Assembly: GCA_946803715.1 (NCBI GenBank)
Contig: CAMPET010000019.1
Location: forward strand, 5,497-37,223
From: Beroe ovata
Lineage: Eukaryota; Ctenophora; Nuda; Beroida; Beroidae
DNA: 31,727 bases
Direction of reading: 5' to 3'
A program made the translations under genes and the position numbers. Within the stretch, counting starts at the first letter, position 1, and the number at the start of each line of letters is the position of its first letter. Below the pieces are notes generated by a model. The model did not search any database. It saw nothing but the letters and a program-made list of their open reading frames with translations, and had not been told where the DNA came from. Shown piece by piece: positions 4,561 through 13,500 of the stretch.

Positions 4561-7500
4561 ATGGTGGCTGATAAAGGAAACCCAGAATATAGGGCCAATT
4601 TCTTCAGTCAACTGACATTCCAGTGAGTGTATAATCATTAAACTTTCCTGCTGTCAGAGAATATGTTATATGGACCAAATGTAAAATTTAGTGCTTAACA
4701 TATCATGATGCAGTTGGGTGGGGAGCATATTCTCAACTGGTTACAAGCGTCCTCTCACTCCTGATGACATATTCTCCATTGACCCAAGGCTGCAAAGTGA
4801 ACGACTGACAGCACTTCTAGAGCAGTAAGTCTTGAAGAATTTCTAGGGATTCGATAACCATAGCTACTTGATACTCCTAATGCAGGTCATACCTATTTAG
4901 GCACCACAAGTAATAGACATCGTTACAGGCAATGGTTTGAAGAAGCCCAGAAAAAGAAAAACCCCTCACTATTAGTAACTCTTCTCAAGAGACATTTGTT
5001 TACACTTATTTGGATTTTCTTTCTTGCTAATATAGAGGTATCTTCTTTTATATGATATTATGCCTGAAAAGCAAACTCATAATTCTCGAATTATTAATAG
5101 CTTGTATTTCATACCAGTTGACAAACAATTCAAAATCTTCATCTGCAGGCTGGCCTCAGACTACTTGTCCCATATTTTGTGTCAGAAGTAACTGCATATT
5201 TTGATCCTACTTCAGATATGACCCTGAAAACAGCTCTATATTGGTCAGGTATGTTATACTCAGATGCCTGAAGAGCAAACTATCACAGTGCTCTGATGTT
5301 TGATACCTTGACCCTGCATATCCTTTACAGCTGGTTTAGGTTTACTACAGTTGAACAATGTTTCCTTCCGGAGTTGGATGTTCTATAGAATAATGCGCTT
5401 TGGTACATCCATCCGTGTATCTGTTACTGGACTCATCTATAGAAAGGTAGGCAAATTTTCATGATTATAGTGAAAACAAGAACCACAAAACCCAGAAAGT
5501 ATATCCTTGATAATAACTGAATTCAGGCATGCAGGATTACACAATCAGAAATAGGAGATAGATCAGTTGGGCTTATAATCAACTTGATAACCAATGATGC
5601 ACAGCGCCTTGATGAGGTTTGTGATATCACATGGATTCATGGGCCTTCTTCATCCCACGGAAAAGCTTTGCCATTTTAACTTTTCATCCGTTTCAGTATA
5701 TAGTCCCATCCTATGTACTTCTCAATATCTGGCTGGTCATTGGGCTGGGATTCGGTATGATGTATCTAAAGATTGGTCTCCTAGCAACAATTGCCGGATT
5801 CACGTCAATGTTGCTGTTCATTCCCATACAGTTTGGGATTGGGAAGCTTATTCTACACCTCAGGTTTTGTCATCATGTATCTGATTAAGCATCAACTTAT
5901 TAAGGGAATAGGGATTCTAATATCCTCCATCCTTCAGAACGAAGATTGCTCCACTAACAGATAGAAGGGTCAAAATTATTCATGAGATAGTGTCCTTCAT
6001 GAAGATAATCAAGATGTACGGATGGGAACTCATGTTTCAGAATCTCGTTGCTAAAGTGAGATTATCCCCTGCTGAATATTGGTGTTTTTTCTCTGCGCCC
6101 CTGTTGCACAGAATCCGAATTAGGAGCTACAAATTTCTTTAATTTTAATTTGATCAGATTTGTAACCAGATCCTGAAAGTAGGCTTGAACCTCACATGAT
6201 ATATTCCTGTGCTTGCACCGAATATAAACTGATATGAGGTAGTCTTATACTAGGCATGGCGTGTAATCCTGTTAGGATAGTAATTGCTCTCTGGAAAAAA
6301 ATGCTGACTGAATTTGTGATCATAAAATGCAAATAATTCTGTCCGGAATAACTACATTAGAGAAATCATGAAAGAATGACAAACTCTTCATTAGGTTCGT
6401 CAGAAGGAGACAAAGTTAATTGGAACCTTTGTTTTGATGAGAGCTATCAACAATGCTCTGCTCTTCATATCACCTATCCTGTCTCTTATAGTAGTCGTGA
6501 TAGTAAGTAAATGATAATGTGATAGTTAGCAGTTAGCACCTACAATTAGGATGCTAAACAACTAAACTTGGTAGAGAGTTCCTTCCAAAAAAGGGAGATA
6601 TTCGTTGTTATCATGCTGAGCATGTAAAGCACGGTTTACGAATTTCATCTTTTTTCAGGTGAAGCGTTATGTCGATGAACCGCTCTCGACCTCAGGTAAT
6701 TCGATGCTTTGTTTTTATCCGGGTTACTATGACGATCTTATACATTTCTGAATGATACTGATGGTATAACTAAACTTTGACCTATAGCGTTAGCTCAAAA
6801 AATACCATTTTTCGTTCACTGATGGAATATATGTTCGACTCCACAGAGGCATTTTTCATCCTGGCAATGGTTGATTCCTTAAAACTTTTCCTTTGCCTCT
6901 GCATTGGCCACTGCTTTGCATCCATTCCCCAAGTGATAACTAGCCTTGCCAGGATTCAGGTTGGATTTGTTGATTTGAATGTTTTGATTGAGCAGTAGGA
7001 TGCTGGCTGTAGGTTGCTAATAGCAACAACAAAAGATGCTATCACCGTGTTTGATTTGATTGTTTCATAAAGTTCCCCACTCTTTCCGCAACCCAAATCG
7101 ATATGCCATGATGTCTCCTGCTTCTCTTCGGAATCTGTCAGCACTCAGCATCCCCCGCCATGAGATTAATCCTAATGAAGGACTATAGAAGAATTGAGAT
7201 CCATGAATTCGAATCCTGCACCCTCCCCTTCCCTCTCAGATCTGTTCTACTTCATGTCGATGTCTGCCGCTCTGAGAAGTTTCATTATCGTCTTCCTCGG
7301 GAGAGCTCTGATGTCAGTTCCACAAGTCCTTCACAGCCTTACTAGGGTTGAGGTACCTACACACGTGTTGTTGTTGGTCAAATGCCATAGATGTTGTCAT
7401 AGAAACCGATTGAACGATCATGTCCCTTGATTCAGTATTGAACTTGATTGTGTAAGCGTTAAAACGTTTCTTTGTATCATAAGTGTTGGTCTCGTCATGT

Positions 7501-10500: not shown

Positions 10501-13500
10501 TTAAACTCTACATTAACATATTTCTCGGCCATACCTTTTCCTTTGTCCCTCAAGTCTTCCACAGCTTACGCCGGATAGAGGTAGGCACATCATTTATTCC
10601 ATATACGGAATAACAAGATTTGTCACTTCTTTACAGCTCTTTATTAAAGATATTGTTCAAGGAAATCATAGAGAAAAGCATGCGAAGCATCGTAGCGTAA
10701 TTCCAAATTTCTTATCATCAAGTGTTACTCTTTGACGGCAGGCACTCATGCAATAGTATAATAGTTCATTAAAGTGACAGTTAGTGACAGTTCCTTCATG
10801 AATCATTCGTAATCATCATGGACAATCTTTGTCCTTTTCGTTGCATGTGTAATGTGTATATTTGTCATTGAAATTCATTGTTCATGTTCTTGCAATCGTA
10901 TGTGACTTTATGAGCATTATTAATGTTACCATTGACCCCAATCCACTATAACTCATTTTCAACTCAAATCCTCCCAGAACTTTCTGAATGCGGACGAAAT
11001 CACGCATCTCAAAAAGAAAGCAGCAATCTCAAACTTGACCAATGACGTCATTATCAACAAGAACTTTCTTCATAAGGAGAGGGCTGAGTCTAACGGCCAT
11101 GTTGAAAAATCAGGTATGCTATATTTTGAGCTCAAAAATGTGTTTGAATAATTAGGTCTTTACAATAACAGAGACATTTTGTCGCCAGTGTGGAAAAATT
11201 TGGCTTTCCTTGCATGAAATATCGGTAAAATTACTTTGTCATATTGGAATAGAAATTGCATACCATCATATGCAGGGGTGAATATTTCGTGGGCTGAAGT
11301 GAATTCAAGTGAAGGATAAAGTAGAACAAGATAATACGTATAGAAACAGCAATATATTATTCTCATATTCTGAAAAATCGTTGAGTTGAATCAAAACTGT
11401 TAATGACTCACATACATTGATGTATATATTGTCAGCGCTCATTTATCTTCTGTAAAATTCGAAACTAATACTCAATTCTGTAGAAATCTGAAGTAAGACT
11501 GAACTAAGTTCGTTATGAACTAAGACTGTTTGGCCACACCAGCGAATTCTCTGGAACGCAGAGGTTCAAGCAACCGTTTTTAGCGATTGTGTTTCTTTTA
11601 TCCAGTGCAACGCATTTTGCTGTTTAAGCCGATAAGTAGATATACATGGAATTGTATTGTCTCACCTGTCCATAATAACAGACGTGTGTATTGAGTTCAT
11701 ATGTACATGTATGTGAGTGTGTCTGTGAGTGTGTGTCTGTGTCTGTGTTTACTCCTTCATAAATCTGATTTTAACACATGCTATCAGGCGTATTCCTTTA
11801 CTAATCTCATTTATACAATCTTATTACGTACCTATGCAGTACCGCGAATCGTAAACGAATTTTCATTCGCCTCGTCGGAAAATTCACAAGATGAATGCAG
11901 ATTTTATAAGAATTACGAAATTCAATAGAAAATGATTGAATTTAAAGATCTTCATAAACCTACAAATCACATACGTCAACACGTACGGCGTACGCGGATA
12001 GAACTGTTCTGAACTGATTCCCAGGGGGAGCTGAGGTATTCTGGATAGTAATGAGATTCTGGACAGTGATGAGTGATGAGATTCTTTAGATATGATTCGA
12101 TATCCATCGTGAGCTGACTCAAATTTGATGGTGTTAAGTAGTCTTGTGAAATTTAAAACTCGTGAATACAGCTTGCACTATGTTAAGTGCTGCTGTTGTC
12201 ACAGTACCACCTACACTCGCTATGTACATTACTGATTGTTGCTTCATTCTCTTTGAAGGGATAGTTGGACAGAAGTAGTTAAACTGTACGTGCTATCTTT
12301 TAACAGATATTTGACAGCGGATCAGTAACGCGCCCATCTCCATTCAGTGGTTCTGCGCGACGAGGATTTCATCGAACATTTGGGCTGTTATAAATTTTCG
12401 CATGCGCGGCGCGCGTTGATCACCCATATATACTGCATGACCTAGATCAATGATGAGTGAATGATTTTTGAACATAATCTTGCAGGTTTGGCCCCAAATT
12501 CTAGTGGAGAAAATGCAGTTGTGATCGAGAACGTGTCAGCTAGATGGAGCAAAGACTCTTTTTACTTGTCAGGTTTGTTTGTTTGTTTGTTTGAGTTACA
12601 ATATGATCTACCTCATGACTGAGACAGATAAGATATGATGTTCCAATTGCAGAGCTCAACCTATCGATCAAGAGGGGCGAACTAATCGCTGTTGTCGGTC
12701 CTGTAGCTTGTGGGAAAACAACGTTCCTCATGTCATTGATCCAGGTAGAACAAAGTAGCAACCATCGACCGCGCGTGATTATGAAAACGCATGATGTAAA
12801 CACTTAACACATGATCAATGCATGGTCTATTATAGTCACGGGATTCCACCTCAGGAGCTAGACAGATACTCGGGCAATGTTCAGATCGATGGAACAATGT
12901 CATTTTCATCGCAAGTACCGTGGATTTACAACGGGAGCATTGAGGAAAACATCATTTTTAACCGACCCCTCGACAAGGAAAAACTAGCCAAGTGCATCGA
13001 ATCTTGCTATCTAACCCGGGTTAATGATAAATAATGATCGGTTTTTCAAATAAATTAACTTGAAAAACGGATTAGAATTGGCGCGTGTTTTCCAGGGAAT
13101 TAGGACGTGTTTGAACCTGATCTTTTTAACCGATAATCTGTTTTTTAACCCATAATCTGTTCGCTCAGGATCTAGAGTTATTCCCGAATGGGATCTACAC
13201 AATTGTGGGGGAGAGGGGTGTCCAGCTGAGTGGCGGTCAGAGAGCAAGAGTCAACCTGGCCCGTGCTGTCTATGGTATGGGAAATGAGAGATGAATATTC
13301 GGAGCAATTTTCGAGAAGATCGGCAAAATTGTTGATCGACTCAAATGGAATCAATGAGCCTCGATTAATGAGTCAGTCCGTCTGCAGTGACTCACTGTAT
13401 CTCCACTTGTCAGGTGAAAGTCCGATAGTCCTGCTAGATGACCCGCTCAGTGCTGTTGATAGTCGTTGTGCTAATCACATCTTCAACAAGTAAGAACATA

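Follow-up and report, generated by a model that had tools for sequence, protein, structure and literature searches.

Tandem arrays of interchangeable exons have been described in ABCC transporter genes. As far as the available excerpts of PMC6071210 and PMC9741552 go, such arrays occur in metazoan MRP genes and arose independently in different phyla (PMC6071210, citing Yue et al. 2017), and unrelated, convergent tandem exon substitutions are found in ABCC9, dMRP and mrp-1 (PMC9741552). The Drosophila melanogaster MRP gene with its eight interchangeable exons (PMC9741552, PMC6071210) is the precedent that the original prediction for the locus described here had named, and that precedent is real. 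As Drosophila MRP, C. elegans mrp-1 and ABCC9 each have such an array, the phenomenon as such is already known for ABCC genes. Here we analysed a stretch of 31,727 nt from the ctenophore Beroe ovata (assembly GCA_946803715.1, contig CAMPET010000019.1, positions 5,497 to 37,223; hereafter the window), which contains a tandem array of seven exons, A–G, each encoding transmembrane helix 6 (TM6) of an ABCC4/MRP4-like transporter. As judged from the DNA, the array very probably represents seven mutually exclusive cassette exons of this ctenophore ABCC4-like exporter. The evidence from anatomy, constraint and frame logic makes a mutually exclusive cluster of interchangeable TM6 exons well supported.

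Anatomy of the seven-exon array

All seven exons lie where the original prediction had placed them, each being 113 nt long with AG before and GT after it, an open reading frame and, as also proposed, a common phase, which is phase 1 in every copy. The exons are listed below with the evidence for each.

6847..6959, + strand: variable exon A (TM6); borders, leave-one-out profile, splice scores
7240..7352, + strand: variable exon B (TM6); borders, leave-one-out profile, splice scores, single-copy genome search
7878..7990, + strand: variable exon C (TM6), with the lowest leave-one-out score; borders, profile, splice scores
8423..8535, + strand: variable exon D (TM6); borders, leave-one-out profile, splice scores
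8981..9093, + strand: variable exon E (TM6); borders, leave-one-out profile, splice scores
9394..9506, + strand: variable exon F (TM6); borders, leave-one-out profile, splice scores
10468..10580, + strand: variable exon G (TM6), nearest to TM6 of the listed Mnemiopsis and Bolinopsis proteins; borders, profile, genome search

The copies aligned without gaps at pairwise identities of 9–22 of 37 residues, reproducing the values given earlier for D–G (22/37) and A–C (9/37). The residue pattern noted before holds as well, with Gly20, Pro27 and Arg35 invariant and columns 3 and 14 aromatic in 7/7 copies. An ungapped alignment with human MRP4 confirmed the placement in TM6: the variable exon corresponds to R350–Q387 (numbering counted from the PDB alignment), comprising TM6 plus the beginning of the linker of the first nucleotide-binding domain (NBD1).

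Leave-one-out profiles, built from six copies each, recovered the held-out copy in all seven cases, with a lowest score of 30.0 bits and E-values between 1.5e-8 (C) and 7e-20 (G); when the array region was dinucleotide-shuffled 300 times, the full profile never scored above 13.4 bits. The array region contains 25 intervals of the form AG–113 nt–GT, nine of which are open in the array phase, and seven of these nine are the exons. Within the window no eighth copy was detected at E < 0.1. Searching the 77.8-Mb genome (534 contigs) with copy B or copy G alone (E ≤ 10) returned the same places, at least eight in number, namely a paralogue on contig C20 in addition to the seven exons. As the genome search scores the best candidates only and diverged TM6 exons of other genes escape it, these counts are lower bounds; among the candidates scored, neither query revealed a further array copy in the genome.

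Constraint, splice sites and frame logic

The proportion of nonsynonymous differences (pN, 0.23–0.50) was below that of synonymous differences (pS, 0.61–0.93) in 21/21 copy pairs. The corresponding substitution rates were 0.27–0.81 for dN, whereas dS was infinite in 11 of the 21 pairs and 1.24–4.63 in the others. All copies are flanked by GT–AG introns, and the introns between copies measure 280–961 nt. Splice matrices were derived from the 28 donors and 28 acceptors that the gene has besides those of the copies, including the sites flanking the array, and the other sites were scored leave-one-out. Acceptor scores of the copies ranged from 5.5 to 14.1 (other sites 0.2–12.3, median 6.9) and donor scores from 4.6 to 7.9 (other sites 2.2–11.0, median 6.6), the weakest donor, that of E, lying slightly under the lower quartile of the other sites (4.9). 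The splice sites of the copies are comparable with those of the rest of the gene. Copies at very high dS are thus still open, with good splice sites and pN below pS, where long-unused copies should have decayed.

The exon length of 113 nt is not divisible by three. When zero to seven copies were joined in silico in their given order, 128 combinations in all, the normal stop was reached by the seven single inclusions only. Skipping all copies led to a stop at codon 362, and every multiple inclusion, all 21 pairs included, stopped at codons 379–414, inside the second copy. These stops lie far upstream of the last exon junction, by 2.6–2.7 kb for the 21 pairs and by 2.5–2.7 kb for skipping and pairs together; by the established rule of nonsense-mediated decay, products with such early stops are expected to be degraded. 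The 113-nt length and the shifted-frame stop in each possible second copy therefore amount to a quality filter, and mis-spliced products should undergo nonsense-mediated decay. This filter does not say in which manner a copy is chosen.

The host gene

The gene model places the array in a gene of 30 exons in the mature mRNA, 29 constitutive and one variable, with an ATG at 4561, a stop at 17582 and GT–AG borders at every intron. The exons 6659–6695 and 10978–11113, named before as the flanks of the array, fit this model.

4561..17582, + strand: ABCC4/MRP4-like transporter gene; gene model, Pfam, PDB matches, ctenophore relatives
6395..6502, + strand: constitutive exon of the TM5 region, upstream; gene model
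6659..6695, + strand: constitutive 37-nt exon directly upstream of the array; gene model
10978..11113, + strand: constitutive exon of the NBD1 linker, downstream of the array; gene model

With each of the seven copies the product has 1341 amino acids and no internal stop, and Pfam identified two ABC_membrane and two ABC_tran stretches in it. By these stretches, and by a PDB sequence alignment in which query residue 5 pairs with MRP4 residue 9, the protein has two units of transmembrane domain and nucleotide-binding domain and no TMD0. Among the best 60 of 541 PDB matches, MRP4 chains occupied ranks 1–8 (top chain 851.7 bits, human ABCC4 828.2), with ABCC2 at 657 bits. By this ranking of PDB matches, as distinct from a whole-protein tree, ABCC4 appears to be the ABCC member nearest to the gene. 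In the protein database (8000 candidates scored), the nearest proteins among the best 120 of 169 matches were from ctenophores, namely Mnemiopsis leidyi (66%) and Bolinopsis microptera (64, 61, 60 and 61%).

Proposed use of the array

For mutually exclusive use, splicing would join exon 6659–6695 to one of A–G and that copy to the exon at 10978. One gene could then give rise to as many as seven transporters that are alike outside TM6 and the first NBD1-linker residues, and each copy would truly be used. The swap of TM6 may tune transport, be it by packing, by gating or by contacts at the residues that match human R362, L363, L367 and F368. In cryo-electron microscopy structures of human ABCC4, L363, L367 and F368 of TM6 form part of the wall of the ligand pocket, and mutants of pocket residues alter ATPase activity or transport, as given in the available portions of PMC10202912 and PMC11948813. 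Copies A–G carry LSMLLLL at the L363 position, LVIIGAI at L367 and CFFFYFF at F368, D and G being identical at all three. The R362 position reads KRIRMRK, with K or R in five copies and I or M in two. Presumably, this arginine of human MRP4 aligns with the salt-bridge residue R347 of CFTR.

Evidence against and alternative explanations

The interpretation as mutually exclusive exons starts from what is directly observed, that is, the anatomy, the homology, the intact splice sites and frames, the constraint and the frame failure of all non-single combinations. Several points weigh against it. The use of any of the copies A–G is predicted from the genome sequence alone. G is the nearest TM6 for six of the seven relatives compared, i.e. 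the ctenophore proteins P0001–P0005 and the 'ena' protein P0006 (15–25/37), and F and G tie at 11/37 for P0007, another 'ena' protein; with the TM6 of relatives being mostly G-like, use of A–F is unsupported outside the window. Among 128 candidates from the protein database, the seven array-region peptides (92-column alignment) had no match at E ≤ 10. Each of B–G has a shifted-frame stop, but in an exon of 37 codons such stops are common by chance, and they are no proof of selection. On an idealised helical wheel of columns 1–18, the mean pairwise identity of the copies was 0.47 on the pocket side of TM6 and 0.16 on the opposite side. Lastly, RNA duplex energies gave no docking/selector signal above that of shuffled introns, in a low-power search of a single genome for one docking site, in the first or last flanking intron, that pairs with all six inner introns.

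The first of these points would also suit a different history, in which only G, perhaps with a few others, is used and the rest are old duplicated exons that are now rarely spliced. G is indeed nearest to TM6 of Mnemiopsis P0001 (24/37) and Bolinopsis P0002 (25/37), and use of A–F is a prediction from sequence. We nevertheless regard this history as improbable, as all seven copies are open with good splice sites despite dS of 1.24 to infinite, and every pair has pN below pS. The Bolinopsis P0002 record is labelled isoform X2, which implies that another Bolinopsis isoform should exist. A search with region 150–420 for other isoforms returned the same five ctenophore proteins and five distant ones from a database clustered at 90%, and this clustering may hide isoforms.

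An assembly artefact, in the form of a collapsed or repeated contig, has a negligible probability in our assessment. Single N letters do occur in the window, at 1371, 2458, 28543 and 29838, but N is absent between 2458 and 28543, and a repeat search brought up the exon pieces as a single family, with no long repeat common to the introns. The divergence of the copies, which are merely 9–22/37 identical at the protein level, likewise speaks against an artefact.

The conservation of the pocket side bears on what mutually exclusive copies would do. Mean pairwise identities for columns 1–26 were 0.45 (pocket side) and 0.24 (opposite side). The variability moment pointed 156 degrees away from the pocket, with p values of 0.014 for columns 1–18, 0.23 for 1–20 and 0.47 for 1–26, on an idealised wheel, with column ranges of our own choice and a possible kink of TM6 at Gly20. 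Variation concentrated on the pocket side was thus rejected, the pocket side being the more conserved one, and the data do not bear out, and speak against, a simple diversification of the pocket. Of the original prediction, the interchangeable TM6 exons are upheld by anatomy, constraint and frames, whereas expression of all seven and a differing substrate specificity of their products are predictions, the second of which this conservation does not favour. Altered packing or gating fits the data at least as well as pocket diversification. It is quite conceivable, if somewhat short of an even call, that the copies are exclusive and used yet differ in regulation, stability, gating or packing against partner helices, not in substrate range. 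The more conserved pocket side, the variability moment of columns 1–18 and the identical pocket positions of D and G agree with this; the variable L367 position, the loss of K/R from the R362 position in two copies, and the idealised wheel with its chosen columns and possible Gly20 kink count against it. The seven predicted isoforms plausibly differ in function, and the term 'detoxification repertoire', coined for them at the outset, is a guess.

How one copy would be chosen can be approached from the introns. Competing RNA pairings of the Dscam and insect MRP kind, in which a number of selector sequences share one docking site, are a rather unlikely mechanism here. Docking/selector pairing is reported for insect MRP clusters in the available part of PMC6071210, but for the best docking windows of the first flanking intron against the six inner introns, 19/30 shuffles reached the energy of the weakest partner and 26/30 the sum, and for the last flanking intron 30/30 and 27/30 did so, respectively. 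Mixed U2/U12 sites as an exclusion mechanism are not supported, as 0/7 donors had the U12 consensus, and steric exclusion is unlikely given the length of the inner introns.

The F–G intron contains an inverted repeat at 9528–9657, found in the repeat search, with 22-nt arms that are 100% complementary and 86 nt apart; inside it lies a 35-nt pair with 86% complementarity. It could be a hairpin or a mobile-element remnant.

Paralogues and age of the array

In the paralogue L039 (C20:344064-344675, minus strand), a single TM6 shares one uninterrupted frame with TM5 and the linker. The array gene has an exon of its own for TM6, a possible precondition for an array. By eye, the relatives on C75 and C90 have one TM6-like stretch each and resemble MRP1 in a motif. 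A fourth relative lies on C29 and more distant ones on C43, C2 and C107; the check for paralogue arrays covers C20, C75 and C90. A tree of the 37 residues with those of relatives had 15–50% support at its key nodes and does not settle the age of the array relative to the species split.

Neighbouring genes

Upstream of the transporter gene, at ~1865-2570 on the + strand, lie exons of a YTH-domain gene (joined peptide, Pfam PF04146, E 1.2e-36), which we take to be YTHDC2-like. Downstream, at ~18400-30030 on the + strand, lies an ATAD3-like gene, two joined peptides of which match ATAD3_N and AAA. Its 3' end, including the last coding exon, is present twice in tandem (29554-29837 and 29844-30135; 92.5% identity over 292 columns), the two copies being separated by the N at 29838. 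Either the assembly has placed two haplotypes side by side, or the duplication is real and of recent date.

Comparison with known systems

A ctenophore-directed search of the open-licence literature found no earlier ctenophore ABCC exon array, although an earlier report is possible. Searches of the ABCC and exon literature, none of them aimed at ABCC4 arrays, turned up no ABCC4-type exon array. Human ABCC4/MRP4 is the nearest family of solved structures across the whole protein among the best 60 of 541 PDB matches, and we know of no TM6 array in human ABCC4. We tentatively propose, with the balance of judgement just on the doubtful side, that modular swapping of TM6 in an ABCC4-type pump arose in a non-bilaterian animal separately from the MRP arrays of arthropods and nematodes, and that splicing thereby yields seven functionally distinct exporters from one gene. 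The array would serve as a natural seven-member series of TM6 swaps for learning the function of this helix, and as the cassettes can be swapped singly in an expression system, the question is directly testable.

Among described systems, dMRP (CG6214) is likewise an ABCC transporter gene whose internal exons include a tandem cluster of interchangeable copies, eight in number (PMC9741552, PMC6071210, available excerpts), a comparison that covers the layout of the array, not which helix the dMRP array encodes. It differs in being an arthropod, long ABCC with TMD0 (available part of PMC6185855), whereas the array gene is a short, ABCC4-like ctenophore gene. C. elegans mrp-1 and human ABCC9 share the tandem exon substitution in an ABCC gene (PMC9741552, in excerpt) but are other ABCC genes of other phyla. 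Within ctenophores, mutually exclusive exons are predicted in Mnemiopsis leidyi Mhc2, which, according to the available text of PMC3912159, is a myosin heavy chain gene with two such exons only. The large ABCC exon arrays that we found described, in the accessible parts of PMC6071210 and PMC9741552, are bilaterian; a seven-copy ctenophore array on a helix that contacts substrates in human ABCC4 would mean that one superfamily had come to this solution independently once more.

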